Of a stretch of 26,942 nucleotides of DNA, positions 5,433 to 22,718 are shown in pieces. Made by a program: the position numbers and the translations under genes. Where the stretch lies: the IMG/VR virus record IMGVR_UViG_3300035698_017976, positions 1 through 26,942 of that record, one strand, 5' to 3'. Source of the DNA: a virus. How positions within the stretch are numbered: the first letter of the stretch is position 1; every line of letters starts with the position of its first letter. Below the pieces are notes generated by a model. It was given only the letters and a program-made list of their open reading frames with translations, did no database searches and had not been told where the DNA came from.

Positions 5433-6113
5433 CTAAAATACTTTAGAGCGCTCTACTTTGCGTTTTTCGAAATATCCAGGATACTTTTCGAGTTGTCCCG
5501 CAGTAGACTCTATGTGTTTTATTATAACATTTTCTCTATAACCAAACTTATAGCCAGCTATTTCAAGCTTTGAACAGAATGATTTATCCCCGCCTGCATG
5601 TTTTGGTTTAGGGAACTCCCAGCCACCAGAGTCTTCATCCCACGCACGCCTGTGGCCAATCATACAAATTCCGCCGATAAATGGCGTCAGACCAATCCCC
5701 AATTCTTTAATAGTGGTGTATCTTTGGACTCCACCCCTATTATCTATCAATCCTTTAACGTAAGGGGAAATCAGAGATTTAGGAGCTAGGACCTTAATCA
5801 TCTTCTCCAGCCAGCCATCAGTTTCTATTTCTACATCGTTGTCTATTTTGACGATGATGTCATAATCTTTGCCTATTTTATCAATAATAAAGTTGACTCC
5901 TCGATTAATCCCTATGTTCGTCTTTAATGGGTAGACGTATATCTTCCCTTGTTTATGAGGGAACCCTTGGAGCCATTCAACTGTTCCATCTTTACTTCCC
6001 TGGTCAAGTACAAAGTGGTCATAGGGGATTTTAGTCTTTTTATTGAGACTTTTAAATGTTTGCTGGGTATATTCCAGCCTATCTTTAGTTAAAGTAAATA
6101 ATGCTATTTTCAT
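5433..6113 (-). CDS. GT2-family glycosyltransferase (GT-A fold)
   Basis: 226 aa. The start MKIALFTLTKDRLEYTQQTF is the usual GT2 opening (strand, then a helix that would contact the nucleotide). FVLDQGSKDGTVEWL aligns with the family 'D-GS-DGT' segment. IVKIDNDVEIETDGWLEKM carries the metal-binding D-x-D (DND, 91-93). NIGINRGVNFIIDK matches the 'N-G---G-N' helix. It would transfer a sugar from a nucleotide donor in the cytoplasm; donor and acceptor cannot be told. It follows another GT2 gene by 3 bp. Its last codons contain a 12-bp perfect palindrome (TAGAGCGCTCTA), probably chance. Confidence 0.85.
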   Translation of the reverse strand: MKIALFTLTKDRLEYTQQTFKSLNKKTKIPYDHFVLDQGSKDGTVEWLQGFPHKQGKIYVYPLKTNIGINRGVNFIIDKIGKDYDIIVKIDNDVEIETDGWLEKMIKVLAPKSLISPYVKGLIDNRGGVQRYTTIKELGIGLTPFIGGICMIGHRRAWDEDSGGWEFPKPKHAGGDKSFCSKLEIAGYKFGYRENVIIKHIESTAGQLEKYPGYFEKRKVERSKVF

Positions 6114-6116
6114 TGG

Positions 6117-6839
6117 CTATTTTCCTTTATGAACATCGCCTGCCAAACCTCTCAGATGTTTCCTAAATTGAGAACTGGACTGTGGATGCAGACCACCATC
6201 TGGATTTCTTTGCCCAATATTAGATTCGTGCCAATGGTATTCAGTAATTACTTCGGGCACATGGACTATCTTCTTTTTAGCCTTACCGAACCTGACCATT
6301 AATAGCCAGTCTGCTTTTCTTATCCAGAAAATGTCCCAGAAACCAACGTCATTGATAGCTTGCCTCGTGTGCATTATGTCTGAGGTATCAATGTAGTTAC
6401 CTTGCTCGATTTGAGATAAGTCGTATGGGAAGCTCTTTTTACCCATGAAGCGCTTTTCATCTGGGTCTTTGCTGTGGTAACTTCTATCGCCGTAAACAAC
6501 ATCGGCCTGTTGTTTGGTAATAGCTTCATAAAGCACCTCTAAGTGATTTGGGAGATAAACGTTATCATCATCTAAGTAAGCAATATACTCGCCCCGAGAA
6601 ATCATAATTCCGACATTCTTTGGTATCACCTGGTAGCCGCTGTTGTGTGGTAAACGCATGGCAACTACCCGTTTCTCTTCATCTGGAAGACTAAACTTTG
6701 GCGGAACCTTTGAATGGTCATCGACTATGATTAGTTCAAAATTCTTGAATGTCTGGGCCAATACACTGTCTATAGCTCGTTGGAGCATTTTTGGCCTGTT
6801 ATATGTGCTGATGATGCAAGAAATAATTGGTTTTTTCAT
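6117..6839 (-). CDS. GT2-family glycosyltransferase (GT-A fold)
   Basis: 240 aa and a textbook GT2: ISCIISTYNRPKMLQRAIDS, then LAQTFKNFELIIVDDHS, NVGIMISRGEYIAYLDDDN with the D-x-D metal motif (DDD at 90-92), and a C-terminal acceptor part ending in a basic stretch. The YRPKML-type helix and VDDHS place it with enzymes of surface-polysaccharide and O-antigen synthesis. It is flanked by a 63-aa unknown (3-bp gap) and another GT2 (3-bp gap). Substrate unknown. Confidence 0.88.
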   Translation of the reverse strand: MKKPIISCIISTYNRPKMLQRAIDSVLAQTFKNFELIIVDDHSKVPPKFSLPDEEKRVVAMRLPHNSGYQVIPKNVGIMISRGEYIAYLDDDNVYLPNHLEVLYEAITKQQADVVYGDRSYHSKDPDEKRFMGKKSFPYDLSQIEQGNYIDTSDIMHTRQAINDVGFWDIFWIRKADWLLMVRFGKAKKKIVHVPEVITEYHWHESNIGQRNPDGGLHPQSSSQFRKHLRGLAGDVHKGK

Positions 6840-6842
6840 ATT

Positions 6843-7034
6843 TTAAATTTTGAGATAGTTTCTTAACCATTCTTCAAAAACCATGCTTAAAACATAAGGC
6901 TCACCACCTAATTCATCCTCGCTATCTTCATCATCATAAGGGAAATGGTCATGATTTTTAAATAACCACTCCTGAATATCAGTAAATATTTTCTTTTTTT
7001 GTTTTAAAGTTAATTTATTCATGATTTTTATCAT
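6843..7034 (-). CDS. Unrecognised 63-aa acidic/helical protein
   Basis: A short ORF: a basic helix (KLTLKQKKKIFTDIQEWLFKN), an acidic linker (YDDEDSEDELGG) and a C-terminal helix (VLSMVFEEWLRNYLKI). Two starts are possible: ATG at 7034 (overlapping the HNH gene by 20 bp) or ATG at 7022 (8-bp overlap); neither has a clear RBS. Nucleotide use is even more AT-rich than in the GT genes and matches the upstream HNH gene, so the two may have arrived together. Function unknown. Confidence 0.5.
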   Translation of the reverse strand: MIKIMNKLTLKQKKKIFTDIQEWLFKNHDHFPYDDEDSEDELGGEPYVLSMVFEEWLRNYLKI

Positions 7035-7596
7035 TTTGCTTTTTTAGAATTTTATTTTCTTTTTTTAATCTTTTAATTTCTGCTTCCATTTTAGTTAAAA
7101 GTGTATGCGATTGTGGGTTAATTATTTCTAAATTTTTTATTCTATTGTCATCTTTAATACCATTTTTATGATGAATTTGTTCATATTTAGTTAATGGTCT
7201 TCCAAGGTGTTTTGCCATTACAAGTCTATGTTCAAGCACATATCCATCATTTTGTGCCATGCAATAATACTTGTCTTTAGGGTGTACCCAAATCTTTATA
7301 TACCCATCCCTTGATGTTCTTCTTCTACCACCCTTCCAATTATAATGTTTTGGTCCTTTTATGCTTTCCCTTGGTCCTTTTAATTTATCTTTCCAAGTTA
7401 TTTTCCTACCCTTTAAACTTTTCCAAAAACATCTTTTATGACAATATTTAGGAGCAAAACCCCTGTTTTTAATGTACCAATCAACTTCACTTTTATATTT
7501 AGTAAATTCTTTACCACATTGTTGGCAAATTAATTTAACATGACTTTCCTTTGTATAAGCAAATCTACCCTTTTTATCTCTATTTATAGACCTCAT
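7015..7596 (-). CDS. HNH homing-type endonuclease with N-terminal zinc ribbon
   Basis: 193 aa. It starts with an RDKKGRF motif typical of phage HNH proteins, then a zinc ribbon (C24-x2-C27 and C52-x3-C56). NWKGG at 86-90 leads into an HNH_3-type core: GYIKIWVHP, EHRLVMAKHLGRPL and IHHKNGIKDDNRIKNLEII (His142-His143-Asn145, Asn151, Asn155). It ends in a lysine-rich coiled coil. Such free-standing enzymes nick or cut DNA and spread their own gene. It sits between the deacetylase and the GT2 pair. There is no RBS, and a TATAAT lies only 6 nt before the ATG. Confidence 0.88.
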   Translation of the reverse strand: MRSINRDKKGRFAYTKESHVKLICQQCGKEFTKYKSEVDWYIKNRGFAPKYCHKRCFWKSLKGRKITWKDKLKGPRESIKGPKHYNWKGGRRRTSRDGYIKIWVHPKDKYYCMAQNDGYVLEHRLVMAKHLGRPLTKYEQIHHKNGIKDDNRIKNLEIINPQSHTLLTKMEAEIKRLKKENKILKKQNDKNHE

Positions 7597-7602
7597 ACAA
7601 CC

Positions 7603-7630
7603 ATTATAACATATGTTGTACCATATTATA
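7603..7630 (-). promoter_or_regulatory. Twin TATAAT boxes at the HNH start (possible leaderless promoter)
   Basis: On the minus strand GTTATAATGG (7610-7601) and GTTATAATATGG (7632-7621) form a direct repeat 20 bp apart. The inner TATAAT ends 6 nt before the HNH start codon, so transcription would begin at or beside the A of the ATG. No good -35 box was found for either. In AT-rich DNA this may be chance. Confidence 0.35.
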
Positions 7631-7631
7631 A

Positions 7632-8213
7632 CTACAAAAATCTAAAATCAGTATTCTTGGGTAGTTTTAATATATTTTCCACAGCCTGTACGAGACCATT
7701 TCCTTTAGGTCCAGGTGGATAATCTTGGATGTGACCATGGCCATAGAGAAGCTTTGAGAATGGGGGAGAGTCTTTAGTGTTCCAGTTGTATTTAATGCCT
7801 ACCCGTGAATCATCAGGGTGAATCATTATCTTGTATCCGAGCTTGGTTAAGCGTTCATACATGTCATCTGATAATTGCCAGAATGGTGCTCTGTAGACTT
7901 TTGCATAGCCTTGAGCTGGTAGTACCTTCAGTTTGTTTTCTGGAACATCTTCGTTATTTTTGTGGTAATAGCCGTGAACGCATAACTGAATCCAATCAAT
8001 GCTCCAGATATACTCGAGCCATTTTTTATTAACATTTTGACTTGGGACAGCAAATAGATTTACTTTGAAATAAGGGAAAGTCTTACGGAGTTGCCACAGC
8101 CAATCAAGGCGGTGGTTAGCTTCACCGAAATCGTCAAAGTCTAGATAGACTATCTTAGAGGGCTTTGAGCCTTTCGTTTTCTTCAAGGATTTTTTTGATG
8201 AATTTTGCTTCAT
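7632..8213 (-). CDS. Polysaccharide-deacetylase-like (NodB fold) protein
   Basis: 193 aa. Motifs in order: YLDFDDFG (D25, D27/D28; catalytic/metal Asp), CVHGYYH (H80-x3-H84, metal His pair), YRAPFW (R108, P110; third NodB motif) and LLYGHGHI (about 156-162; last motif His). Members remove N- or O-acetyl groups from sugars such as GlcNAc, with a divalent metal. It is shorter than most NodB proteins and begins with a Ser/Lys-rich leader. The ATG at 8213 has GGAGG 9 nt upstream and lies within the dehydrogenase gene, giving a 59-bp out-of-frame overlap, so the leader is encoded on top of the other protein's C-terminus. Catalytic competence is likely but unproven. Confidence 0.75.
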   Translation of the reverse strand: MKQNSSKKSLKKTKGSKPSKIVYLDFDDFGEANHRLDWLWQLRKTFPYFKVNLFAVPSQNVNKKWLEYIWSIDWIQLCVHGYYHKNNEDVPENKLKVLPAQGYAKVYRAPFWQLSDDMYERLTKLGYKIMIHPDDSRVGIKYNWNTKDSPPFSKLLYGHGHIQDYPPGPKGNGLVQAVENILKLPKNTDFRFL

Positions 8214-8931
8214 ATCCTATTTCCTCCAACTTTGTAACTATGGCGTTAATGTCCTTAGGTAGACACTTGCCGCTAAAACCTCTCTTGTCAGGGTAGACAA
8301 GTGTGTGGCTTCTATTAATACGTTTATCTGCCAGCCACAGCTCTCTTAATTCATTATAATCAACATCAAGAGTCTTTGCAATTTCATAGAACTCATTACA
8401 AAAGGTTACTTTGTTGCCTAACCAACAGTTCTCCATATACTTGACTAGCTCTGCAGTTCTCACATCTGTTTGATAAAACTGGGTGTCTGCGTGCATGAAT
8501 TTCTGCATGTACATGATGACCACTTTTCTGGCTGCTGGACCCCCTCCTAAAATAACAAATGGTCTCTTCCTCAAGTCTAAATATGGGTGGTGAATTGTCT
8601 CTCCTAGGTACTCTGGCTCAAAAACAATTTCTTTCTTATACTTCTTTGAAAGGTACTCACAGGTTCCAGGTGCCACTGTAGAGCGAATAATGATGATAGG
8701 TACCTCTAACCATGCTACGGCCTCTTCTACTATCGAAATATCACACGAGCCGTCTTCTTTCTGTGATGTTGGCACACACACGAAAGCTAGGTCAGCCTCT
8801 TTATTCATAATGGCTCTGTTTTTATAACCTTGGATGGGGTCGTGGATAATGCAGTTTTCAGTTCCAAAGAATGCTGCTTGAGCCTTACCTACGATACCGT
8901 GTCCTACTATTCCTACTGTGAAATTAGACAT
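8155..8931 (-). CDS. UDP-glucose/GDP-mannose dehydrogenase-like protein lacking the C-terminal domain
   Basis: 258 aa; full-length family members are about 390-450. It has the Rossmann NAD motif GIVGHGIVG (7-15), VCVPTS (51-56), RSTVAPGT (83-90), EPEYLGE (105-111), the central-helix Lys in AELVKYMENCWLGNK (K164) and the catalytic Cys in GFSGKCLPKD (C223, D227). It then stops about 30 residues later, so the C-terminal nucleotide-sugar-binding Rossmann domain is missing. Normal enzymes oxidise UDP-glucose to UDP-glucuronate. Here the chemistry residues are kept but substrate binding would have to be altered. The RBS AAAAAGGAG is strong. Neighbours are an HNH gene upstream (8-bp overlap) and the deacetylase downstream. 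Confidence 0.82.
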   Translation of the reverse strand: MSNFTVGIVGHGIVGKAQAAFFGTENCIIHDPIQGYKNRAIMNKEADLAFVCVPTSQKEDGSCDISIVEEAVAWLEVPIIIIRSTVAPGTCEYLSKKYKKEIVFEPEYLGETIHHPYLDLRKRPFVILGGGPAARKVVIMYMQKFMHADTQFYQTDVRTAELVKYMENCWLGNKVTFCNEFYEIAKTLDVDYNELRELWLADKRINRSHTLVYPDKRGFSGKCLPKDINAIVTKLEEIGYEAKFIKKILEENERLKAL

Positions 8932-9394
8932 AATTGAATCTCCTTTTTATTGCACCTTTACTTTTTTTATCAAACTTTTTATGACATTTGCAACATAATT
9001 TTATCCAATCACTTTTTATTCTTTTATATTCATGACTTATATTAGCCCACTCTATATTTTTTGTTGATTGACATTTTTTACAAACATCTGCTTTTCCAAA
9101 ATGATTTTTAACCCAAGTATGAATAGCACGATATCCTGCACTGTCACCCTTCCATTTACCGTGATTTTTTCCATAAAGTGTTGGTGGCTTATTACCAATT
9201 CTTTTTTGAGAAATACTCATTTTATTTTTTGTTTCATCACTTAATTTTCTTCCAACCAATCTTTTTGAATGTTCTGGATTTTTCTTCCCAGTTAGGGTTT
9301 TGCTTATTTTTTTCTTTGTTTCTTTAGAAACAACCATTCCCTTATTATGAGGAAATCCTTTAATAAATCGTCCATTCTTATCTCGTCCTTTCAT
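8924..9394 (-). CDS. HNH endonuclease with NUMOD3-like repeats
   Basis: 156 aa from the ATG at 9394, chosen because AAGGAG precedes it and it forms an ATGA overlap with the upstream stop; an ATG 13 codons earlier lacks this. Order: KGRDKNGRF, then two NUMOD3-like DNA-binding repeats (SKETKKKISKTLTGKKNPEHSKRLVGRKLSDETKNKM style, about 23-66), WKGDSAGYRAIHTWVKNHFG, then a zinc-bound HNH core with C105-x2-C108, N113, H121 and CCKCHKKFD (C135, C137). NUMOD3 modules occur in phage homing endonucleases. It lies between a methyltransferase and the dehydrogenase in the glycan island. Confidence 0.87.
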   Translation of the reverse strand: MKGRDKNGRFIKGFPHNKGMVVSKETKKKISKTLTGKKNPEHSKRLVGRKLSDETKNKMSISQKRIGNKPPTLYGKNHGKWKGDSAGYRAIHTWVKNHFGKADVCKKCQSTKNIEWANISHEYKRIKSDWIKLCCKCHKKFDKKSKGAIKRRFNYV

Positions 9395-9897
9395 AATGGT
9401 CTCCTTACTAAAATGCTTGTTAACAGTCCACAAGATTTCTCGGCTTCTAACTCAAAGCCAGCTTTTCTGGCTATCAGTTCCATACAGGCAGGAGTTATTC
9501 TCCAGAAATCATCGTAGCCAGAGGCTGGATGATATGGATAGGTGAATGGCGCATCTAAGATGGCGTACCCTCCCTTTTTGGTTAGCCTAAACACTTCGTG
9601 AATTGCCTTAATCGGATTATATACGTGCTCTAGAGTCTGAGAACAAATGATTAAATCAAACTTCTCAGGGTCTAAACCAGTATCTTGTATATCTGCTACA
9701 TACGTTGGTTTTAATCTTTCCAAGTAATCTAGTGTTTCGAAAGTGTTTCCTTTGCCAAAATACTTGAAATTGCCTCCTGGCTTTGGGTCACCGTCTATGC
9801 CCACTTCAAGAACAACCCAGTCTTTATTTTCAGGCTTTAGTATGTCGGCATAAGCCTCCATGGTGTCAAATACTTTTTTTCTTACTTCGCTTGGCAT
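9391..9897 (-). CDS. Class I SAM-dependent methyltransferase
   Basis: 168 aa. A Rossmann-type methyltransferase: VVLEVGIDGDP (motif I, about 28-38, with an unusual insertion PKPGGNFKYFGKG), YVADIQD (end of strand 2), FDLIICSQTLEHVYNPIKAIHEVFRLTKKGGYAIL (motifs IV-VI, typical Methyltransf_11 pattern) and PFTYPYHP. Proteins of this type often methylate sugars in surface-glycan loci. The C-terminus is short and ends in an ATGA overlap with the HNH gene, so it may have been trimmed by that insertion. Substrate unknown. Confidence 0.82.
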   Translation of the reverse strand: MPSEVRKKVFDTMEAYADILKPENKDWVVLEVGIDGDPKPGGNFKYFGKGNTFETLDYLERLKPTYVADIQDTGLDPEKFDLIICSQTLEHVYNPIKAIHEVFRLTKKGGYAILDAPFTYPYHPASGYDDFWRITPACMELIARKAGFELEAEKSCGLLTSILVRRPL

Positions 9898-9924
9898 ATT
9901 TTTATACCTATTGATTCAACATTA

Positions 9925-10632
9925 TCACAAATTCTTAGTATTATGTTTTTCTATCCAATTGACTTTAATCTCATGGTCATTACATCCAGCAATAATAGCT
10001 TCCAATCCACGAGTCATTCTCTTACTCCTCTGTCCTGTGAACGATTGCATAGTGGGGCGCATGTCATGGTCTATCTTATTAGTTTCACCGAAATGCTCCT
10101 TTCCTTCAATATTCTTGAAATTACAGCCAATAATATTAATAGGATTACATCCCATCATAATTGCTACATACATACAGGGGTGCAGACAAGTTCCATGCCC
10201 TCCAAAGGTCTTAGAAGTAGCTTTAACGGCTTCTGCGACCATTTTACGCATGGCATTAGGTCCAGAGTCAGAAAAGATAGCACCATAGTTGCTGTTAGGT
10301 GGATAAGGCTTCAAATCGAGGTAATATGCTTTTTTACTAGCTTCTCCTATTGCTTCATCCGCCACTTCTTTTGGACGATTATAGAAGGGGTAACCAAAAA
10401 TATTCACTTTATCTAAAATCTCTGGATATTTCTCTTTTAAGAAAACAAACCTATCTTTCTCGTTGAAATACCTGAAGGTGGTATTTGGAAACTTTATGTA
10501 AGCTAAATGGAGAGTAATTGCCAATTTATTATCTAGAAAATCATCAGGATAACTTTCAAGACTAGGGTCAGAACCTACAATCCAAATTTCCTGTCCTTTA
10601 TATTTATTGTGTAACTCAGTTATCCATTTCAT
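9925..10632 (-). CDS. MptE/DUF115-like Rossmann protein, putative glycosyltransferase (paralogue A)
   Basis: 235 aa. The N-terminus MKWITELHNKYKGQEIWIVG leads into GSDPSL (20-25), corresponding to the G-x-GPSL nucleotide motif of DUF115/MptE-like and CST (GT42) sialyltransferase-like folds. It is followed by TLHLAYIKFPNTTFRYFNEKDR. The C-terminal half has GGHGTCLHPCMYVAIMMGCNPINIIGCN (144-171), the second family signature. Relatives include flagellin-modifying Maf proteins and archaeal MptE, so sugar or pterin transfer are both conceivable; context favours sugars. It is closely related to the protein at 11472-12125. In this copy the middle Gly of GSGPSL is Asp. It overlaps the GT upstream by 17 bp. 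Confidence 0.65.
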   Translation of the reverse strand: MKWITELHNKYKGQEIWIVGSDPSLESYPDDFLDNKLAITLHLAYIKFPNTTFRYFNEKDRFVFLKEKYPEILDKVNIFGYPFYNRPKEVADEAIGEASKKAYYLDLKPYPPNSNYGAIFSDSGPNAMRKMVAEAVKATSKTFGGHGTCLHPCMYVAIMMGCNPINIIGCNFKNIEGKEHFGETNKIDHDMRPTMQSFTGQRSKRMTRGLEAIIAGCNDHEIKVNWIEKHNTKNL

Positions 10633-11479
10633 ATTTATCTATGTCTCCAATATCGTGTAGCTTAATTTTTCCAAATCCCCCAGACTTAAATCGGTTTGCT
10701 CTAAAACTAAACATTCCTTTTTCACCAATGCTTCTATGTCGTAATGTCAATGTGTACAGCCCTTTATATCCTGCTTTTTCTATCGCTTTTTCCATAACAA
10801 AATCTTCTGTCGGCGTATCTCCTTTCATGTGCTGAGAATTATAAATAGCTCGCATTTCCTCCCGAACTTCTTTATAAGTAGAAAGGTCATACAGGAACTT
10901 CTTAAAATCACACCTTGCAGTCGCTTCAAAGTACGGTTTGATAAAAGGTTTAATTTTATCCCAGCTTTCTCTCCAGAGTCCAAGCTCCCATCTATGAGAT
11001 AATCCGTAAGCTACTTTATTCTGAAGCTTTGTTGCACTTTCTAAAGACTGGATATTGTCTCCACGGTATCTGAAAGAAGTTTGAATCGAACCAGCATCAC
11101 TACCCTTAAACTGTTCAAATAAAACTTTCAGCGTCTTAATATAATGCTTGTTAAAAATAAGGTCATTATCAACAAATACTCCATATTCGTACAAAGGAAA
11201 CACATACTCTAGCTGGAGCCTGTTTCTGGTGATTGGACCCAGGTTGTGCTGACTGACAAAGATTGTTTTGTTTGGTAGTTTTGATTCTTGAAAGACCTTT
11301 AACGATGCCTGCACTTCTTCATCAGTAGCATATCTTATTCCTGAGAATGGATTGACTGCTCCATCTTGGAAGAAGAAAAAATCAACATCTAGGTCCGAAT
11401 TGTTTTCTAAGGACTCTAAGCATTGTTTTAAATATTCAGGTCGTTTAAAACCTCTGACTGCGATGCAAAGTTTATTCAT
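10616..11479 (-). CDS. GT-A glycosyltransferase (GNT-I/GT2-like), paralogue of 18924-19787
   Basis: 287 aa. The opening CIAVRGFKRPEYLKQCLESL and FFFFQDGAVNPFSG are followed by SKLPNKTIFVSQHNLGPITRNRLQ and YGVFVDNDLIF with the metal-binding D-x-D (DND, 104-106). The order QDG ... SKLPN ... DND, equal length and similar spacing make it a clear paralogue of the 287-aa protein at 18924. It lies between the two DUF115-like genes with 17- and 8-bp overlaps, as a tight cassette. Donor and acceptor unknown. Confidence 0.82.
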   Translation of the reverse strand: MNKLCIAVRGFKRPEYLKQCLESLENNSDLDVDFFFFQDGAVNPFSGIRYATDEEVQASLKVFQESKLPNKTIFVSQHNLGPITRNRLQLEYVFPLYEYGVFVDNDLIFNKHYIKTLKVLFEQFKGSDAGSIQTSFRYRGDNIQSLESATKLQNKVAYGLSHRWELGLWRESWDKIKPFIKPYFEATARCDFKKFLYDLSTYKEVREEMRAIYNSQHMKGDTPTEDFVMEKAIEKAGYKGLYTLTLRHRSIGEKGMFSFRANRFKSGGFGKIKLHDIGDIDKYEMDN

Positions 11480-12125
11480 AATTTTTTAACCAATTGACTT
11501 TTATATTGTTATTAGCACAGGCTTTAATTAAAAGTTCAGTTCCCTTTTTCATAATCTTTCCCTTTATCGCATAAGGGGTAGAGCTACTTCGATATTGGTT
11601 ATTATCATTTCCTAACTTGAAATGTTCCAAATTATCTTTCGATTCATGATTGCAGCCAATAATATTTATTGTTTTTGCACCCGTCATTATGGCTGTATAC
11701 ATACAGGCATGAAGACAGCTTCCATGTCCTCCAAAATCAATTCTTTTACCATTCTGGGCGTCTTTAACCATCTGTGTGATAACTGCTATCTCTTGAGGTG
11801 GAAATGGTCTTAAAACTAGAAAGTATGGTTTTTCCATATCTATCAAGTTGCTCATTTCCCTCTCAGTTTTTTTATAGAATGGGAAGGCAAAGATATTAAT
11901 TTTATCGAAGTATTCTGGTTTGTGTTGTTTGAACCATACTATTCTGTCTTGTTCATTGGCATAGCGATAAGTTGTGTTTGGAAACTTTAAATAGGCAAGG
12001 TGAAGGGTAAAGGAAACTTTCCCATCTAAAAAATTATCAGGGTATCCATCTAAAGAAGGTCCTGAACCTGCTATAAATATTTCTTCCCCGAGATGCTTAT
12101 TATGTAATTCAGTAATAAATTTCAA
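11472..12125 (-). CDS. MptE/DUF115-like Rossmann protein, putative glycosyltransferase (paralogue B)
   Basis: 217 aa. MKFITELHNKHLGEEIFIAG, GSGPSL at 20-25 (canonical), TLHLAYLKFPNTTYRYANEQDR, then FGGHGSCLHACMYTAIMTGAKTINIIGCN (131-159). It shares long stretches with 9925-10632 but is 18 aa shorter in the middle (LRPFPPQEI versus LKPYPPNSNYG plus an insert). The shared layout points to gene duplication followed by divergence. Known relatives act on nucleotide-activated sugars (Maf, GT42-like) or on pterins (MptE); I infer sugar transfer from the neighbourhood. Its stop overlaps nothing; 16 bp separate it from the methyltransferase upstream. Confidence 0.68.
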   Translation of the reverse strand: MKFITELHNKHLGEEIFIAGSGPSLDGYPDNFLDGKVSFTLHLAYLKFPNTTYRYANEQDRIVWFKQHKPEYFDKINIFAFPFYKKTEREMSNLIDMEKPYFLVLRPFPPQEIAVITQMVKDAQNGKRIDFGGHGSCLHACMYTAIMTGAKTINIIGCNHESKDNLEHFKLGNDNNQYRSSSTPYAIKGKIMKKGTELLIKACANNNIKVNWLKNYE

Positions 12126-12141: not shown

Positions 12142-12744
12142 TCATATTTTTTTAAAGGCACCATTTTTAGAAATCATGTTACCTTCGGGAATATTCCAAC
12201 CTTCTATTGGTTTGCCATCTCTTCTAAAGGCCCAATCGACGTTAACTGCCTTATTTATAAAATGTTTAGTTTTATATTCAATATTATTTTTATCACAATA
12301 TGCTTTTACAGCCTTTGCTACTCCAGGATGAGCAGGTACATGGTCGTGTCCGCCTACAATTCCATCCTTTTTAACTTTTGGTGTCCATATTTCAGTATCT
12401 TCTAATGTAAATTTATAGTCGTGGTTTGCATCAATATAAGCAAAATCTAGGCTTTCATTTTCAAAATGAATAACTGCTTTGACTGATGTAGTTTTAATCC
12501 ATATTATTTTATCGTTATATTTTTGTAGCTTTTCTTTTGCAACTTTTTCATGCCGTTCATTATCCCACTCTAGTCCTCCAGTCTTATATTGAAAATAAGG
12601 GTCAACTAGATAGAGAGTTTTTATATCAAGACGTTCTAACATTTTGAGAGCATGACTTCCTGCCAATACTCCTATTTCCACGCCGACTAAATCCTTTTTA
12701 TCCTCAAGTAAAAAATCAAATGCTTTGATTGGTGGACAACCCAT
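12142..12744 (-). CDS. Class I SAM methyltransferase (Methyltransf_24-like)
   Basis: 200 aa. GVEIGVLAGSHALKML (motif I, 21-36), LYLVDPYFQY (strand 2), then LDFAYIDANHDYKFTLEDTEIWTPKV and DGIVGGHDHVPAHPGVAKAV. The series 'VEIGV--GSHA', 'DFAYIDANHDY' and 'GGHDH--HPGV--AV' is the hallmark of the Methyltransf_24 / cephalosporin-hydroxylase-like family found in glycan loci, which O-methylates sugars; the HDH motif can bind a metal. The C-terminal 40 residues are specific to this protein. It sits 1 bp downstream of a GT. Confidence 0.85.
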   Translation of the reverse strand: MGCPPIKAFDFLLEDKKDLVGVEIGVLAGSHALKMLERLDIKTLYLVDPYFQYKTGGLEWDNERHEKVAKEKLQKYNDKIIWIKTTSVKAVIHFENESLDFAYIDANHDYKFTLEDTEIWTPKVKKDGIVGGHDHVPAHPGVAKAVKAYCDKNNIEYKTKHFINKAVNVDWAFRRDGKPIEGWNIPEGNMISKNGAFKKI

Positions 12745-12745: not shown

Positions 12746-13600
12746 TTATGTTTCCTTCCTTAATGGTAGTGCCAGCTCTTGATGAGTTGACTTAATATTA
12801 CTAAAATCTATTGCTTCCAAATCGACAACGTACCCTTCTAAATATTTGTCAATCAATTTTTCAACAGGGTAACTAAACTTCTCACCACTAAATAAAGGGG
12901 AAAAGGTATTTACGTTATTAACTGGATTACTCACTAGCTTGCTGTGTTTATAGGCAACCAAATTCTTTTGAGTTATTGCTTCTCTACTCTCATTATTATT
13001 TAGGTGTCTCTCTATTTCGTTAGGTGTTTGTCCTTCGATTCTACCCAGTAAATTTTTGATTGTTTCAGTCTTGAAAGTACAACCATCTCCAAACCCTATT
13101 GGGTAACCATTACAACGCCTAGGGTTATACTCCGTCCAATCCCATTTAATAAACTCTCCTAAGTCTTCATATTCTCCCCATGGATTTTCAATTATTGTTT
13201 TTCCTCCATAGAAACTATATTCGGCATTGAGACCCGACCTCAAAGAAAAAGAGATAACATCATCTGTCGTCTGGGCAATAACATCATCCATGGAAACTTT
13301 TCCATAGACAATAGCATCATCAGAGAATAAACAAGTATAGTCATACTCATCACCCATTAATTTTACGAGGTAATTCTTAAATGCAGGGGTATGGGAAATG
13401 CCTTTATCACAATGCCACTCATCTACTAATCCTTTTTCCTTGAAATTCTCATATCCCTTGAGGAATCTATCATTGGAATAATTATAAGTAACAATGATTT
13501 TGTCAAAGCCAGTAATATTTTTCCTGATACTTCTTACCAATAGGTCCAATTGCATGGGCCGATTGTATGAAAAAATCATTAATTGTACTTTTTCACTCAT
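12746..13600 (-). CDS. Glycosyltransferase, GT-A (GT2-like)
   Basis: 284 aa. VQLMIFSYNRPMQLDLLVRS is a GT2-type opening, DKIIVTYNYSNDRFL replaces the usual 'VDNGS' strand, and YDYTCLFSDDAIVYG provides the metal site (SDD, 93-95). A central RCNGYPIGFGDGCTFKTE resembles the acceptor/donor closing loop. The C-terminal 70 residues (YPVEKLIDKYLEGYVV...) are helical. The 'SYNRP' start and S-D-D variant place it in a divergent GT2 group. It sits 2 bp after the epimerase and 1 bp before a methyltransferase, suggesting work on the same sugar chain. Confidence 0.78.
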   Translation of the reverse strand: MSEKVQLMIFSYNRPMQLDLLVRSIRKNITGFDKIIVTYNYSNDRFLKGYENFKEKGLVDEWHCDKGISHTPAFKNYLVKLMGDEYDYTCLFSDDAIVYGKVSMDDVIAQTTDDVISFSLRSGLNAEYSFYGGKTIIENPWGEYEDLGEFIKWDWTEYNPRRCNGYPIGFGDGCTFKTETIKNLLGRIEGQTPNEIERHLNNNESREAITQKNLVAYKHSKLVSNPVNNVNTFSPLFSGEKFSYPVEKLIDKYLEGYVVDLEAIDFSNIKSTHQELALPLRKET

Positions 13601-15110: not shown

Positions 15111-15495
15111 TTTTTCTTTCTATTTTAGCCCACACCTTTTCATTGATGTAGTACATTATCAATTTAATAACAGTATACGTCCCAGTAATCTGGGTTACCT
15201 TAGACCACTCTTTAGTAAATAATAACACAATTAATCCACCAAGTCCCATTCCTAGAATAATCTCGTAAGTAAAGGCTTTGGCTATTCTTCTCCATGGAGC
15301 ATCTTTATCGTAGAATTTCATCCACACTCTCTCATGCAGGTAAAAAACCAGCAAGAAAGTGGTGTGGTGTACAAGTGTGATATAGGTGGTGGTAATCCAT
15401 TTCCTGGTAAAAAAGTAGGTTACTGATGCTAGGACGATAACGCCCATGATGCGCCAGATAATACTTTTAAGCATTGACAATTTATGACTTGTCAT
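15103..15495 (-). CDS. DUF2061 integral membrane protein (two repeats)
   Basis: 130 aa, about four hydrophobic segments (roughly 15-29, 36-54, 76-93 and 101-116). It is built from two similar halves: KSIIWRIMG...YLHERVWMK and KAFTYEIILG...YINEKVWAKI. The K-S-I-x-WR and HERVW motifs identify DUF2061, a family of small inner-membrane proteins often found near sulfate- or nucleotide-metabolism genes, with no settled function. It is wedged between the cytidylyltransferase-like and LicD-like genes with 14- and 8-bp overlaps, so translation is probably coupled. A role in anchoring or moving the modified glycan is speculation. Confidence 0.8.
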   Translation of the reverse strand: MTSHKLSMLKSIIWRIMGVIVLASVTYFFTRKWITTTYITLVHHTTFLLVFYLHERVWMKFYDKDAPWRRIAKAFTYEIILGMGLGGLIVLLFTKEWSKVTQITGTYTVIKLIMYYINEKVWAKIERKNG

Positions 15496-15946
15496 TTTGA
15501 CCCCCCTTCAAATTATTAGGATATTCTTTTTCTCCATACTTCCACTTCCTCAAAACCTTATTCTTAATAGCCGTAGAGCTTTGTCCAGCAAAATAAGGCA
15601 GTACAATCAGTCTACTTTTTTGTTTAGACGTTAGTATTTGAGCTTCCTCAATCGCCTCTTTTGAATGACTTGTGCTTTCAAAAAGAATGTCTACGTGGAG
15701 TTGTTTTACATTTGGAAGAGGTGAATAGGTTTCTTGTTTTACTGCAACATCTACACACCTAAGACTTTTAACTGTTTCTAGACGCTCACCAAATGAAAGA
15801 ATAGGCTTTTCCTTTTTTTCTATTACAGCCCCATCAGTAAGAACGCCAACAATTAACTTGTCACAAAGGGATTTACAAGACTGAAGATGTTTTAAATGGC
15901 CGATGTGTAATAAATCGCCAACTACGTAAGCGTATCCTATTTTCAT
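15482..15946 (-). CDS. Cytidylyltransferase-like nucleotidyltransferase (HxGH family)
   Basis: 154 aa. MKIGYAYVVGDLLHIGHLKHL contains HIGH at 14-17 (the HxGH nucleotide motif), followed by LIVGVLTDGAVIEKKEKPILSFGERLETVKSLRCVDVAV and, near 121-128, GQSSTAIK (the 'ISSTxIR/K' motif). This is the pattern of glycerol-3-phosphate, choline-phosphate and ethanolamine-phosphate cytidylyltransferases and of HldE-like enzymes. It would make a CDP- or ADP-linked precursor, plausibly for the LicD-like protein two genes downstream. It is preceded by an 88-bp gap holding one copy of the flanking direct repeat and a possible extended -10 promoter. Confidence 0.85.
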   Translation of the reverse strand: MKIGYAYVVGDLLHIGHLKHLQSCKSLCDKLIVGVLTDGAVIEKKEKPILSFGERLETVKSLRCVDVAVKQETYSPLPNVKQLHVDILFESTSHSKEAIEEAQILTSKQKSRLIVLPYFAGQSSTAIKNKVLRKWKYGEKEYPNNLKGGQNDKS

Positions 15947-15990: not shown

Positions 15991-15991
15991 T

Positions 15992-16000: not shown

Positions 16001-16034
16001 AGTTTATAACTTTACTTTTTAAATTGCAAACCTA

Positions 16035-16793
16035 TTACATAGGCTTATAACCATTTTCTTTTGTCTCATTTTTTGTCTTTATTTTAAGTTTATCAGAAAC
16101 AGGAATGGAATCTGCTTGTCTTCTTATTGGATATAATTTTTTAGCCATAACATTTCTGAATCCAAAATGACCAGGAGTACGACAGTATCCTACTCCCTTT
16201 GTATCTAATCGGGCATAATATTCATCTGCTTTTGCAGGGATAACAAATGGACGATTGCTCATGCTTGTAATTAAATCTTCTTCCCTTCCAAAAGTATAAT
16301 TTTCCTTCAACAACATTTCTTCGGTTTTAAATATATTTTTAAAAGCTGAAAACGATACAAATAAAAGTGCTTCACCAACCAATAAATCAACTTCTTGAGG
16401 TTTTTTTATACGATTACCATAAATCTCGTTGCCTGTTACATAACAAGAACTAACTTTTGGATTGACTATTTTCCCCCAATATCCATAACAACAACCATTT
16501 TCGGCATACCTCAAAAAGTTTTCTAGTGTATTTTTATAAACTGAAACATCATCATCTAAAAAAAGATAATAGTCACTTGGTTCAATCAAGGCGATGGGAT
16601 ATCTCACTCTACCTCCATAATTCTTACCACTATTTATTACTGTGCCATCACCTAAGTAAGTTACTTTGGGGTTATTATTAAAAATAATTATTTCATCTGG
16701 AGGACGAGAACTATTTTTTAAATCTTTTACAATTCTTGGTATATTCTCGGTACGTTCAGGATAATAATGTAGAACGACTGCTGTAATTTTCAT
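16035..16793 (-). CDS. Glycosyltransferase, GT-A (GT2-like), in a repeat-flanked cassette
   Basis: 252 aa. MKITAVVLHYYPERTENIPRIVKDL is a GT2-type opening; PPDEIIIFNNNP takes the place of the 'VDNGS' strand; NSGKNYGGRVRYP matches the 'N-G---R-N' helix; SDYYLFLDDDVSVY has the metal site (DDD, 80-82). YTFGREEDLITSMS may be the E-D catalytic segment. The C-terminus is basic. The gene is bounded by 49/52-bp direct repeats (16786-16834 and 15939-15990), as if inserted between the GT4 and cytidylyltransferase genes. The RBS region has AAATG where the downstream gene has AAAGG, so translation may be weak. Confidence 0.8.
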   Translation of the reverse strand: MKITAVVLHYYPERTENIPRIVKDLKNSSRPPDEIIIFNNNPKVTYLGDGTVINSGKNYGGRVRYPIALIEPSDYYLFLDDDVSVYKNTLENFLRYAENGCCYGYWGKIVNPKVSSCYVTGNEIYGNRIKKPQEVDLLVGEALLFVSFSAFKNIFKTEEMLLKENYTFGREEDLITSMSNRPFVIPAKADEYYARLDTKGVGYCRTPGHFGFRNVMAKKLYPIRRQADSIPVSDKLKIKTKNETKENGYKPM

Positions 16794-16834
16794 AACAATA
16801 ATTTGACATTTCTAACTTTTATAACAGTTTCTCT
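16786..16834. repeat. Direct repeat copy B flanking a GT gene
   Basis: 49 bp, the partner of 15939-15990. Here it includes the real 3' end of the GT4 gene (codons for E-K-L-L and the stop), the 25-bp spacer, and ATGAAAAT of the GT gene at 16793. Because it overlaps coding sequence of the GT4 gene, this junction may be the older one and copy A the duplicate, or it reflects recombination between similar junctions. Confidence 0.85.
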
Positions 16835-17826
16835 AAATTCTCTGCTGTCTTTTCCCAAGTATACTCTTTTGCTCTTTTTCTTGCATCTTCGCTTAATTCT
16901 CTAAGCAAATCATGGTCTTCGAAAAGTTCTGTGACCAACTCTATTGCTGTTAAATGCCACTTATAATCGTCTATGCTTCCACCGATGATGTAACCTGTAT
17001 CGCCAACCAAATGCTTTATATTGCCGTTGTCACTGGCGATTATTACACATCCAGAAGCCATAGCTTCGAGGACAGCCAAGCAAAAAGTTTCTTGAATATG
17101 CTTACCTACAGGATACAAGAAAATCTGCGTCCCACCAAGTTGTTTTACCATTCTCTTCTTACCAGAGCGTCCATGGAAGAGTATCTTGTTCTTAATTAAG
17201 TCATCGTACATGCTCCTGTATTGGTCATCATCCCAACCCCACAGACCACCACCACCATAGACATGGATGCTGGCGTGTCTCATCTTTGGCTTTAATCTTC
17301 TGGCAAACTCTATCAGGGACTTCATTCCTCCCTTAAATGGATGGCCTATATAGCTGATACTTAAATCCCACTTTTTTCTATCTTCAAAGAAATAATCTCT
17401 AACCCCTGGTTCAATCACTGCTGTCTTTTTGACTAATTCCTGAGGCAATTCAGAAGCATATCTATCTCTGTGCCACTCGCTTGAAACAATGAGGTTGTCC
17501 ACGTTTGGGTATCTAAGAACATCTTTTATGGCGACTCTGGTTGACCAGTTGAAAACCTTCTTGGCATCGTATTGCTTTGGAAGACTTTCAAATCCTATCA
17601 GCGCATCTTCATTGCTTGGTTTGTAATCAAAATGCTGCATGTACTTAACGCCATCGTAGATATCTGGGAAATTACATTTAATGTAGACTGTTACTTCGTG
17701 ACCCCTGGTGGCCAATTCACGAGCAACTTCAATAATAACAGTCTGCGTACCACCAACTCCTATGTTCTTCAACGTGTTTGGATTGTAGGCTAATTTTTCG
17801 TTGTTATCGTAAAGACTTATTTTCAT
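16819..17826 (-). CDS. GT4-family glycosyltransferase (GT-B fold)
   Basis: 335 aa. MKISLYDNNE, then GVGGTQTVIIEVARELATRGHEVTVY (23-48) is the GT4 N-terminal glycine loop and helix. The C-terminal domain has SYIGHPFKGGMKSLIEF (donor-side 'K-G' loop) and a canonical E-x7-E at E246 and E254 in QETFCLAVLEAMASGC. ASDNGNIKHLVGDTGYIIGG follows. The enzyme probably transfers a hexose with retention. It overlaps the sulfotransferase-like gene by ATGA. Its last codons are duplicated downstream of the next gene (direct repeats), evidence of local rearrangement. Confidence 0.9.
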   Translation of the reverse strand: MKISLYDNNEKLAYNPNTLKNIGVGGTQTVIIEVARELATRGHEVTVYIKCNFPDIYDGVKYMQHFDYKPSNEDALIGFESLPKQYDAKKVFNWSTRVAIKDVLRYPNVDNLIVSSEWHRDRYASELPQELVKKTAVIEPGVRDYFFEDRKKWDLSISYIGHPFKGGMKSLIEFARRLKPKMRHASIHVYGGGGLWGWDDDQYRSMYDDLIKNKILFHGRSGKKRMVKQLGGTQIFLYPVGKHIQETFCLAVLEAMASGCVIIASDNGNIKHLVGDTGYIIGGSIDDYKWHLTAIELVTELFEDHDLLRELSEDARKRAKEYTWEKTAENLEKLL

Positions 17827-18326
17827 TTTGTTTGGTTGTACTTGAAATTAATTCGTTTATTTTTTGCAATCCACAATGGGTGTCCAGAAAGACTTTCATA
17901 TTCGACTTCGAGCCAGTTTTCTACTTTTGGTTTCTGTTCTTTTTCCCACACATCATACTTAATTTTAGATATGACCCCCCTTTTCTTGCCGTATTTGGAA
18001 AGCTCGGTTTTGTCACCCCAGCCAATTCTTTTTTGAGAGGCAAGAATATCATCGATGTCTCTCATCATGAATATTATTAGGGTGTCATTTGCTGAAAAAT
18101 CTTGAATCCAAGCAGAAATTGCTGGGCACTGCACTACAATATCGCCTCTTTTAAATATTTTTCTTAACTTATCACGGTTGCTGACGTTGAACTCTTCTTC
18201 ATCAAGATAGGTATAACCAGTATCGGCGGCAATCATTTTAGCTGCAATTCTTGTCCCCGACCTTTGAGGCCCAGTAACCAAAATCTTGTTATATTTTTTT
18301 AGGCTTTCAAACATGCTGTGTGTCAT
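17823..18326 (-). CDS. Sulfotransferase-like P-loop protein
   Basis: 167 aa. ILVTGPQRSGTRIAAKMIA (15-33) is a P-loop of the sulfotransferase kind (PAPS 5'-phosphosulfate loop, '-RSGT-'). LIIFMMRDIDDILASQKRIGW (83-103) matches the 3'-phosphate loop 'R--------S'. If active it would move sulfate from PAPS to a sugar hydroxyl. At 167 aa it is shorter than usual sulfotransferases (about 250-300), so a general P-loop kinase-like role is possible. It has ATGA overlaps on both sides, with a methyltransferase and a GT4, consistent with tailoring of the same glycan. No PAPS-synthesis gene is in the window; PAPS would come from the host. Confidence 0.7.
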   Translation of the reverse strand: MTHSMFESLKKYNKILVTGPQRSGTRIAAKMIAADTGYTYLDEEEFNVSNRDKLRKIFKRGDIVVQCPAISAWIQDFSANDTLIIFMMRDIDDILASQKRIGWGDKTELSKYGKKRGVISKIKYDVWEKEQKPKVENWLEVEYESLSGHPLWIAKNKRINFKYNQTK

Positions 18327-18937
18327 AGTTCTGTTACTTTCTGAAATATTGAGTAGAAGCCTATCTTTACAACCTCATACTTGTACTTAACTGCCAATTT
18401 TTCTATCTCGTCGGTAGTCCAGAAAACTGTGTCTAGAGCTGGTATAGCCTCGTTCTTAACTACCCGATGTTCTTTATCTAAAGGTAGTCTGAAAATGAAG
18501 TGACCTCCTTTTTTAAGAACCCTCCTAGCATCTTGGAATATCCTCTCCGTCATATCTTCTGGCAGATGTTCAAGCATTGAAACTGCTAAGACAATCTTAA
18601 AATCTAGGTCTGTGAGTATAGAAAAATCCCTAATGATTGGTGATAGTGCAAATCTGTTCTTGCCTAGCAACCTCTTGTTGGCCCTGCCAAGCAGTGATTG
18701 AGCAAAATCTACTCCATGGACAAAAGCTCCTGCTTCAAGCAGGTGTTCTGTGAGAGAGCCATCACCACAACCAAACTCAACAATTCTAGCTCCCTTAATA
18801 TTACTAAACAATTTCATCACATGTACATAATTTGTCTCATGTTTATTTCTGTTGGAAATATAGACATTCCAATCTTTTGAGGCTCCAAACTCATGCCATT
18901 GATTTTTAATGTCGTAGTAATTTTTATTTAATCTCAT
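18323..18937 (-). CDS. Class I SAM-dependent methyltransferase
   Basis: 204 aa from the ATG at 18937 (AAAGG about 10 nt upstream). The upstream in-frame ATGs would extend the protein into the GT gene in another frame without a domain. GARIVEFGCGDGSLTEHLLEAGAFVHGVDFAQSLL has motif I (VEFGCGDGS, 53-61) and the acidic residue after strand 2. LDFKIVLAVSMLEHLPEDM and RRVLKKGGHFIFRLP complete the Methyltransf_11/25 pattern. It would methylate a small molecule or sugar. It overlaps the GT upstream by 14 bp and the sulfotransferase by ATGA. Confidence 0.88.
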   Translation of the reverse strand: MRLNKNYYDIKNQWHEFGASKDWNVYISNRNKHETNYVHVMKLFSNIKGARIVEFGCGDGSLTEHLLEAGAFVHGVDFAQSLLGRANKRLLGKNRFALSPIIRDFSILTDLDFKIVLAVSMLEHLPEDMTERIFQDARRVLKKGGHFIFRLPLDKEHRVVKNEAIPALDTVFWTTDEIEKLAVKYKYEVVKIGFYSIFQKVTEL

Positions 18938-19787
18938 CTTTTTTTGGCCTTTCTTTGAGGGTGGAAATCTCGAATGATTCAAACTCAACTTCGTCCTCAA
19001 ATTCATAGATTGAGTTGTGGCCATCACCCATCTTCTTCATTTTAGCTGGTGTGCTATGAATGCCATGGTCACCGATGCCAGTAGCCCGATTGACTATAAA
19101 TCTAGCTCTTCGCATCCCTGACTTTAGTATTGCCCAGTCCTTACCGTTGTCTTGTGAGGTGGCTGCTCTCTTTATTCCAGAGCGCTTAAACAAAGCCTTA
19201 ATTGCAACATCATTTCTTTGGTTATATGGTCTATGTTGAACAATATTGTAATAGGCCATGAACTCATCTTCTACCAATTTCCATTTCTTCGACCAACAAG
19301 CCTCTGCCCAAAAATGGCCGTCAGTTAACATCAATTTATTTGCAAAATAATCAGTATCTTCCTCATAACATTTACGCCTAAATCCTGGTGAAACACAAGC
19401 TATTTGGCCATCATCTTCAAATTGCGTTAATATGCGCTTCATTAGACCAAAAAAATTTTTACTGACAACAACGTCATTCTCTAAGAAGATGAACTGCTCG
19501 TAGTTGGTCATCAAAAATCTCATTGCCTCAAATTGATTAATTGCCACTGATACATTTTTCTTTTGCATGTGGAGTTTTTTATTAGGGAGCTTGGATTTTT
19601 CAAATAGCTTTACGCTTTCTTTGATAAGGGACTCTTTGGTTTTTTCAACACCAGTGAACTTACAAATGTGGCCATCTTGAAACAGGTGGAAATCAAGGTC
19701 ATCGAGCTCATTCTTTTCCAAACTTGATAGAAGCTCTTTAAGATATTGTGGTCGATTCCATGAGACGATTCCTACTCCTATTTTCAT
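18924..19787 (-). CDS. GT-A glycosyltransferase, paralogue of 10616-11479
   Basis: 287 aa. GVGIVSWNRPQYLKELLSSL, then FHLFQDGHICKFTG, KLFEKSKLPNKKLHMQKKNVSVAINQFEAM and FIFLENDVVVSKNFF, with the D-x-D equivalent END at 103-105. The same length and block order (QDG, SKLPNK, ND) as 10616-11479 show common origin; the metal motif differs (END versus DND). GT-A glycosyltransferases of this layout resemble GNT-I-like and GT2 enzymes. It is ATGA-coupled to the fusion protein upstream. Donor unknown. Confidence 0.82.
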   Translation of the reverse strand: MKIGVGIVSWNRPQYLKELLSSLEKNELDDLDFHLFQDGHICKFTGVEKTKESLIKESVKLFEKSKLPNKKLHMQKKNVSVAINQFEAMRFLMTNYEQFIFLENDVVVSKNFFGLMKRILTQFEDDGQIACVSPGFRRKCYEEDTDYFANKLMLTDGHFWAEACWSKKWKLVEDEFMAYYNIVQHRPYNQRNDVAIKALFKRSGIKRAATSQDNGKDWAILKSGMRRARFIVNRATGIGDHGIHSTPAKMKKMGDGHNSIYEFEDEVEFESFEISTLKERPKKDEIK

Positions 19788-22111: not shown

Positions 22112-22115
22112 AATT

Positions 22116-22718
22116 TTATACCCAATTTATTTTGTTAGAGGTATTAGGGTCCCTCTTAACTGCAGCTTCGTCCTGTGGGGTTATCGTTTGCGGACCCCCA
22201 GCATCACGCTCAGCAACTAACTTCTGAATTTTCGCACCCATGGGAGTAACCCCGCCACGTCTTGGGGCATCTTTCATATCCTTATCGGATTGCTCAATCA
22301 TTTTTTCTACTTCTTTGGGAACTGGCCCAGCCTCAGATGGCCTTGCACCTAGAGTACCTGGAGCCGCTGCTGGTACTGTAGGAGTGGGGGTTGCTGTAGG
22401 AGAGGGAACGTTAAAGGCACGCTTATAACCACAATTTGTACAATTATAAGTTTGCCCACTAAGAAATAGTCTATCGTTACATTCAGGACAGAATTGGTCT
22501 GGATATAAAACCCTCTGCACTAAACCAAATAACTGCTTCTTCAGCTCTTCAGGACTATCTTTATAGTCCTCTACTGTTCTATCAATCTTTTCCTTTAGAG
22601 TTGGTTGCTTAGGAGCTGGTGTTACCTTTGGCTCTGCCTTAGGCTTTACCTTTGGTTTTGACTCCATTTTTGGTGTCTCTTTTTTTGTCTTTTTTTCTAT
22701 TTTCTTTTTTTTTGTCAT
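22116..22718 (-). CDS. Lysine/proline-rich zinc-ribbon protein of unknown function
   Basis: 200 aa. Residues 1-40 are lysine- and proline-rich and probably disordered; 41-72 are a helix (LKEKIDRTVEDYKDSPEELKK); 77-96 form a zinc ribbon (C77-x2-C80, C93-x2-C96: FCPECNDRLF, YNCTNCGYKR). 101-130 is a Pro/Thr/Ala linker, and the rest is charged. The RBS AAAAGGAG is strong. It is the first gene after the possible promoter at 22782 and 4 bp upstream of the big fusion gene. The layout suggests a modular binding protein, maybe a virion or DNA-associated factor; this is not established. Confidence 0.7.
   Translation of the reverse strand: MTKKKKIEKKTKKETPKMESKPKVKPKAEPKVTPAPKQPTLKEKIDRTVEDYKDSPEELKKQLFGLVQRVLYPDQFCPECNDRLFLSGQTYNCTNCGYKRAFNVPSPTATPTPTVPAAAPGTLGARPSEAGPVPKEVEKMIEQSDKDMKDAPRRGGVTPMGAKIQKLVAERDAGGPQTITPQDEAAVKRDPNTSNKINWV

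Follow-up and report, generated by a model that had tools for sequence, protein, structure and literature searches.

A predicted glycan assembly pathway encoded within the head-morphogenesis module of an uncultured tailed-phage clade

We analyzed the complete 26,942-base IMG/VR record IMGVR_UViG_3300035698_017976 (hereafter, the window), which is classed as linear and is thus a fragment of a phage genome, and found an island of glycan assembly genes within its head-morphogenesis module. The island appears to encode one pathway, shared by an uncultured clade of tailed phages with genomes of about 100 kb, and we marginally favor the view that the glycan is placed on the virion. All glycan and head genes lie on the minus strand of the window. 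Genes were called as open reading frames (ORFs), and their functions were inferred from sequence or predicted structure.

An island of glycan genes adjoins the capsid genes

We kept 23 ORFs at positions 5433-22718, nearly contiguous and with the widest gap (about 175 bp) before position 7015 (Table 1). Twelve of the 23 scored above the Pfam curated cut-offs for glycosyltransferase (GT), sugar-nucleotide, LicD, or S-adenosylmethionine (SAM)-dependent methyltransferase families, bearing out a preliminary description of this stretch that had proposed such profile searches as a check. They comprise three GT2 enzymes, one GT4, a GT4-GT2-methyltransferase fusion, and members of the UDPG_MGDP_dh, Epimerase, CTP_transf_like, LicD, Methyltransf_11, Methyltransf_24, and Methyltransf_25 families. 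Predicted folds or alignments marked four further ORFs as GT-like, and NodB-type motifs were present in one more; three ORFs (10616-11479, 18924-19787, and 12746-13600) had no Pfam support. An S78 protease and an SU10-type major capsid protein (MCP) come after the island, separated from it by two small ORFs. The minus-strand island beside capsid genes had thus been recognized correctly, but its limits were drawn too narrowly, as glycan genes also lie at 23586-24341 (GT2) and, on the far side of the MCP, at 177-1235 (GT4). Four of the ORFs in the stretch encode two HNH endonucleases (7015-7596 and 8924-9433), a zinc-ribbon protein (22116-22718), and a DUF2061 membrane protein (15103-15495), which corrects the preliminary description.

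The island is conserved in position and under purifying selection

A scan of IMG/VR with the MCP found 30 loci that share the capsid gene. Their upstream side carries island genes wherever the contig extends far enough, and GT4a lies downstream in the main clade. No MCP locus with enough flank was devoid of glycan genes. Two relatives are near complete (G001 and G008; 100,839 and 102,499 bases), and their gene orders bridge each other's ends, which would fit a genome of about 101-103 kb that is circular or circularly permuted. The order in both is terminase, portal, ClpP-type protease, GT4, R2K, island, S78 protease, MCP, C2H2 protein, GT4a, another GT4, c22, and head-tail and tail genes, and in G001 these GTs together stretch over about 30 kb. 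Most of the longer relatives share a core consisting of the flanking GT4, GT2d, the fusion protein, GTx3, GT4b, the nucleotidyltransferase-like protein, DUF2061, MptE1, GTx1, the deacetylase-like protein, GT2b, GT2a, and GT4a. The fusion protein (19784-22111) is 57-67% identical within the clade and 36% identical in G010. Every gene with a close enough relative was found to be under purifying selection, with estimates or bounds below 0.26 for the ratio of nonsynonymous to synonymous divergence (dN/dS), values that are rough because synonymous sites were often saturated. A layout shared by about 30 contigs is neither chance nor an assembly artifact.

The terminase ORF encodes 1248 amino acids in G001 (58296-62042) and 559 in G008 (66340-68019), the extra length in G001 probably being an intein or an inserted endonuclease. 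The tRNA load also differs strongly among close relatives, with 7 genes in G001 and 26 in G008 (L050-L060).

The central cassette is exchanged between phages as a block

The central part of the island forms a cassette composed of the nucleotidyltransferase-like protein, DUF2061, LicD, the epimerase, a methyltransferase, and the Maf-like and GT13-like GTs. It is allelic: LicD-epimerase-GTx2-methyltransferase-MptE2 is found in the window, G005, G008, and partly G007, while G001 carries an alternative allele with epimerases, a split transketolase, and another GT, and similar cassettes occur in G009 and L064/L079. The split transketolase (L067:6983-8072; G001 81079-82168) has its thiamine diphosphate-binding and pyrimidine-binding domains encoded as two genes.

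Mean synonymous divergence from the window was lower in the cassette than in the other genes for G005 (0.51 vs 0.77; one-sided p = 9.5e-5), G007 (0.56 vs 0.73; p = 2.1e-3), and G008 (0.57 vs 0.79; p = 4.1e-4), these p-values being indicative, as the cassette limits were set after the shared genes had been seen. The same test was not significant for G001 and G013. The phage record G013, which has a different SU10-type MCP, carries the same block, with identities of 78% for LicD, 72% for GTx2, 75% for the methyltransferase, and 66% for GTx1, in a GT-rich stretch that begins about 1.4 kb after its MCP. A related module lies shortly before the portal gene of G015. Phages therefore exchange the cassette as a block, even with a lineage whose capsid gene is different. 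Such joint movement to comparable places would be surprising for unrelated cargo and supports one exchangeable pathway. The earlier proposal of one pathway rather than random cargo is thus well supported by conservation at the same place across the clade, low dN/dS, and multigene exchange.

Proposed pathway and the virion as its favored target

In the pathway that we propose, nucleotide sugars, mostly host derived, would be adjusted by the phage short-chain dehydrogenase/reductase (SDR) epimerase, the short nucleoside diphosphate (NDP)-sugar dehydrogenase, and the HldC/TagD-like nucleotidyltransferase. An oligosaccharide would be assembled in the cytoplasm by about a dozen GTs, almost all of them soluble, and the deacetylase-like enzyme, the methyltransferases, and the LicD-like transferase would trim and cap it. 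The enzyme set fits the complex glycan proposed before, with a predicted product of many residues bearing methyl caps and possibly a phospho-ligand (LicD-like) and deacetylation. Because the genes lie between the portal and the protease and MCP genes and continue past the MCP, the glycan is probably made late, together with the capsid proteins, and put on a virion protein. The sugar-protein linkage may be made by the Maf-like GT, and candidate acceptors are the MCP, its small neighbors, and c22, a protein rich in Ser and Thr. A swapped central cassette would alter the outer glycan and may give rise to different phage surface "serotypes."

The preliminary description had named either the virion or the host surface as the target; sequence cannot decide between them, and several features lean toward the virion. 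We favor the virion because glycan and morphogenesis genes are interleaved, because no flippase- or polymerase-like protein was seen in the main clade, and because the predicted fold of one GT is nearest to Maf. Two other lineages carry a related module beside the MCP or portal gene. Pfam searches of the window found no flippase, polymerase, transporter, or initiating transferase, and hydropathy, a crude test, revealed no flippase- or polymerase-like multitransmembrane protein in G001 or G008.

The gene c22 encodes 166-168 residues and directly follows a GT4 gene in nearly all clade members; the window stops short of it. It is present in 51 IMG/VR loci, and its Ser/Thr content is 16-32%. In G008 and G001, where it reaches 24-25% against a mean of 11%, it is the richest or second richest among the proteins of more than 100 residues. 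A GT4 gene directly followed by c22 was also seen in phage contigs outside the clade (L188, L189, L204, and L207).

Several observations weigh against the predicted virion target. Archaeal HPPK (Z 11.8) and sialyltransferases (Z ~10-11) are further matches of the MptE1 model, and the two MptE-like proteins score below the cut-off of Maf PF01973 (28.5 and 25.2 vs 34.6 bits). Outside the clade, a GT was found within three genes of c22 at 11 of 25 loci vs 7.6 expected (p = 0.076), which is not significant, and we therefore advance c22 as a dedicated acceptor as a hypothesis only. The island includes a membrane protein, DUF2061, as well as LicD-like and deacetylase-like enzymes, of kinds usually associated with surface glycans. 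The outgroup record G011 encodes an EamA-like membrane protein with 10 transmembrane segments (46507-47385, record reversed) beside its glycan genes. LicB choline permeases belong to the EamA-like superfamily; G011 also holds a remote LicD match.

The main competing explanation, which we regard as possible, though not as the favored one, is that during infection the phage remodels the polysaccharide of its host's surface so as to mask receptors or exclude superinfecting phages. The island would then lie among the late genes because cargo is tolerated there. Enzymes resembling LicD, deacetylases, HldC, and UDP-sugar dehydrogenases commonly belong to lipopolysaccharide, teichoic acid, or capsule loci, DUF2061 could provide the membrane step of such a pathway, and comparable loci in pelagimyophages (PMC7029224) and gut phages ("Gratiaviridae"; PMC8008677) were assumed by their authors to modify the host surface. 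However, no flippase, polymerase, or initiating transferase was found in the window or the near-complete relatives, the portal, protease, and MCP genes are interspersed with glycan genes throughout the clade, and a late change of the host surface would presumably be of little value to a lytic phage.

A free polysaccharide, secreted or particle associated, or a soluble glycoside, linked neither to virion proteins nor to a host surface glycan, seems very unlikely. The many GTs, with acceptors that are only candidates, and the GT4-GT2 fusion, which profile-matches polymerizing synthases such as chondroitin synthase and TagF, would agree with it, but no export genes were found, and the methyltransferases and LicD suggest a capped and decorated glycan. 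Still less probable is the glycosylation of phage DNA bases against restriction. Although DNA-base GTs are known in T-even phages (cited in PMC9614988), the island has far too many sugar enzymes for this purpose, and we rejected the idea because Pfam searches of the window and of a set of G001 proteins turned up no base-modifying gene. A chance collection of host genes or an artifact of assembly can practically be dismissed. The homing endonucleases and singletons indicate that the region tolerates insertions, but the same gene order in about 30 contigs from many metagenomes, purifying selection, and block transfer already contradict it.

We also considered a more specific version of the virion target, in which a cytoplasmic pathway free of lipid carriers and a Maf-like linker place a long methylated glycan on a virion protein such as c22, and lineages trade the cassette for its outer structure, resulting in O-antigen-like variation of the virion. 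With all its parts taken together, this is rather unlikely.

Enzyme identities

The predicted fold of MptE1 was nearest to the central domain of the Magnetospirillum magneticum Maf protein (5mu5, Z 13.9), followed by HPPK (Z 11.8) and CstI (Z 10.9). Maf enzymes O-glycosylate flagellin at Ser/Thr with nonulosonic acids, and their central domain resembles Cst-II (PMC11339370). Any likeness to the Maf flagellin glycosyltransferases (PF01973) would lie in this predicted fold; MptE1, at 235 residues, has the central domain only and falls below the Pfam cut-off. The predicted structure of GTx1 showed a clear GT-A fold, nearest to the GT13 enzymes POMGnT1 (Z 21.6) and GnT-I (Z 21.2). GTx2 (12746-13600) had no match in Pfam, PHROG, or PDB profile searches, the last of which were equally unproductive for the MptE and deacetylase families.

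Among the tailoring enzymes named in the preliminary description, the LicD-like protein, a tentative assignment, scored above its cut-off with a match that covers only positions 1-36 of the 227 in the profile, i.e., its N-terminal part. The sulfotransferase-like protein (17823-18326) fell short of its family cut-off (25.3 vs 27 bits). The deacetylase candidate (7632-8213) had no Pfam, NCBIfam, or PDB profile match but retained the NodB-type motifs (DD, HxxxH, and RxP), as read by eye across 14 homologues.

The NDP-sugar dehydrogenase (8155-8931) has part of the N-terminal domain, the central domain, and no C-terminal domain, and therefore not all three domains of UDP-glucose/GDP-mannose dehydrogenases. 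It is 255-284 residues long throughout the clade and retains the GxC motif (GFSGKCLPKD). The nucleotidyltransferase did not reach the equivalog cut-off of TIGR02199 for HldC (67.8 vs 181.5 bits), though this was its best-scoring model. DUF2061 always lies beside the nucleotidyltransferase gene in these phages, and its cellular homologues (L228-L231) adjoin genes that look, on reading the sequences by eye, like APS kinase, CysQ, or CysH.

Comparison with known systems

Glycosylation by phage-encoded GTs has been reported for the capsid and tail-tube proteins of mycobacteriophages (PMC12363180, PMC11256854), and glycoproteins have been detected in phage XacN1 (PMC5852040). Our clade shares phage-encoded GTs with mycobacteriophages Che8, Corndog, and Myrna, but one or a few GT genes were described per phage there, whereas here the head module contains about 25 genes, donor and capping enzymes included. 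Chlorovirus PBCV-1 likewise encodes its own, mostly soluble GTs and methyltransferases. The domains of its A064R protein extend the capsid glycan by two sugars and a methyl group (PMC9614988), and the GT-GT-methyltransferase layout of A064R resembles that of the fusion protein 19784-22111, a comparison of layout only. PBCV-1 differs in being a eukaryotic algal virus with scattered genes, and the first domain of A064R is GT-A (GT34-like), whereas that of the fusion protein is GT4.

As in our clade, the host recognition cluster of pelagimyophages has GTs and genes resembling rfaE and UDP-glucose dehydrogenase close to structural genes (PMC7029224), and "Gratiaviridae" have a GT between portal and MCP (PMC8008677). 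The former is a hypervariable mixture with tail fibers and the latter a single GT, whereas we found a conserved pathway with one exchangeable cassette. Conserved flanks around an exchangeable central cassette are also the layout of bacterial O-antigen and capsule loci with serotype cassettes, although here the location is a phage head cluster, and no flippase, polymerase, or export genes were found.

The gene set had been called unusual. Phage virion glycosylation and phage GT arrays are already known, GT arrays beside structural genes and glycosylated capsids having been reported (PMC7029224, PMC12363180), so the word applies rather to the size, the conservation, and the cassette. The apparently new element is a large pathway of about 25 genes, conserved and embedded in the head module, whose exchangeable cassette different phage lineages have in common. 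The open-licence literature that we searched contained no description of this clade.

If the virion is the target, the clade would spend roughly a quarter of its genome on a self-made, changeable glycan coat of the particle. This would parallel, in a bacterial virus, the capsid glycosylation of chloroviruses and the serotype loci of bacteria, and would bear on phage diversification in the face of recognition by hosts or competitors. The modular enzymes (the GT4-GT2-methyltransferase fusion and the Maf-like and GT13-like GTs) might then also serve glycoprotein synthesis in bacteria. If the host surface is the target instead, the island would rank among the larger phage loci devoted to it and would lend itself well to studies of superinfection.

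Phage affiliation and other features of the window

The SU10-type MCP and the S78 protease identify the window as part of a tailed phage. Placement in Caudoviricetes agrees with its HK97-type MCP, the portal and tape measure genes of G001, and terminase similarity. Compared with cultured phages, the MCP reached only 23-26% identity, to SPO1-like and Bacteroides phages, and the best terminase matches included Rhodococcus and Gordonia phages at 31-34%. MptE1, DUF2061, and c22 had no match among 50,697 records of a cultured phage collection. Searches of cellular genomes gave no MCP match in 84,980 species genomes, only remote, partial matches of the fusion GT across many phyla, and, among about 1,300 genomes of three groups, weak matches or none to the profiles of DUF2061 and MptE.

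Table 1. Features of the window, from the capsid side to the upstream end of the island. pLDDT, predicted local distance difference test.
Feature	Position	Strand	Evidence
GT4 glycosyltransferase GT4a, beyond MCP	177..1235	-	Pfam Glycos_transf_1 34.2 bits, cut-off 26.4; 35-80% identity in clade
Small protein with C2H2-like motif (CxxC...HxxxxH), adjoining MCP downstream	1588..2037	-	Sequence; clade-wide conservation 36-85%
SU10-type MCP	2165..3205	-	Pfam SU10_MCP 104.8 bits; PHROG 752
S78 prohead protease, acidic scaffold-like tail	3228..4715	-	Pfam Peptidase_S78 28 bits, cut-off 21; PHROG 80
GT2 glycosyltransferase GT2a, clade core	5433..6113	-	Pfam GT2 49.7 bits; clade conservation
GT2 glycosyltransferase GT2b, clade core	6117..6839	-	Pfam GT2 95.3 bits; clade conservation
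HNH endonuclease, inserted, outside pathway	7015..7596	-	Pfam HNH_3
NodB-like polysaccharide deacetylase candidate	7632..8213	-	DD, HxxxH, RAP motifs invariant in 14/14 homologues
Short NDP-sugar dehydrogenase	8155..8931	-	Pfam UDPG_MGDP_dh 74.3 bits; TIGR03026 140.7 bits vs cut-off 189.8
NUMOD3 homing endonuclease (HNH), inserted	8924..9433	-	Pfam NUMOD3
SAM methyltransferase MT11	9391..9897	-	Pfam Methyltransf_11 42.6 bits
Maf/GT42-like glycosyltransferase candidate MptE1	9925..10632	-	AlphaFold pLDDT 90.8; Maf 5mu5 Z 13.9
GT-A, GT13-like glycosyltransferase GTx1	10616..11479	-	Model pLDDT 90; POMGnT1 Z 21.6
Second Maf/MptE-like protein MptE2, cassette gene	11472..12125	-	47% to MptE1; below Pfam cut-off
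SAM methyltransferase MT24, cassette gene	12142..12744	-	Pfam Methyltransf_24 54 bits
GTx2, GT-A-like by inspection only, cassette gene	12746..13600	-	77-87% in relatives with same cassette
SDR nucleotide-sugar epimerase/dehydratase, cassette gene	13603..14580	-	Pfam Epimerase 148.6 bits; PHROG 540
LicD-like transferase, cassette gene	14607..15110	-	Pfam LicD 33.7 bits, cut-off 22.6
DUF2061 small membrane protein	15103..15495	-	Pfam DUF2061 61.5 bits, two repeats; hydrophobic segments
HldC/TagD-like nucleotidyltransferase	15482..15946	-	Pfam CTP_transf_like 43.2 bits; TIGR02199 67.8 bits, cut-off 181.5
GT2 glycosyltransferase GT2c	16035..16793	-	Pfam GT2 26.5 bits, cut-off 23.3
GT4 glycosyltransferase GT4b	16819..17826	-	Pfam GT4 54.6 bits
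P-loop sulfotransferase-like protein, non-core	17823..18326	-	Pfam Sulfotransfer_3 25.3 bits, below cut-off 27; 71% relative in L064/L079
SAM methyltransferase MT25	18323..19027	-	Pfam Methyltransf_25 55.2 bits
GT-A-like glycosyltransferase candidate GTx3, GTx1-related	18924..19787	-	~25% to GTx1 in family alignment
GT4-GT2-methyltransferase three-domain fusion, 775 amino acids	19784..22111	-	Pfam GT4 76.4, GT2 99, Methyltransf_11 36.5 bits
Zinc-ribbon protein, clade-conserved	22116..22718	-	Weak zinc-ribbon match
GT2 glycosyltransferase GT2d, beyond 5433-22718	23586..24341	-	Pfam GT2 98.3 bits; 52-82% in clade

Three HNH-type endonucleases (7015-7596, 8924-9433, and 24323-24769, minus strand) lie between glycan genes at positions that are not conserved, and the island region is a target for homing elements. 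The window contained no tRNA genes and no matches to Rfam RNA families. At the start of the island, an R2K-type ATP-grasp protein, possibly a peptide or amine ligase, is encoded at 25994-26755 (minus strand; 25.2 bits, just below the Pfam cut-off of 26.3), and its gene is kept in G001, G005, and G008. An RRM RNA-binding protein (24875-25147, minus strand; 92 bits) is encoded within the phage late gene cluster and is also found in G008.

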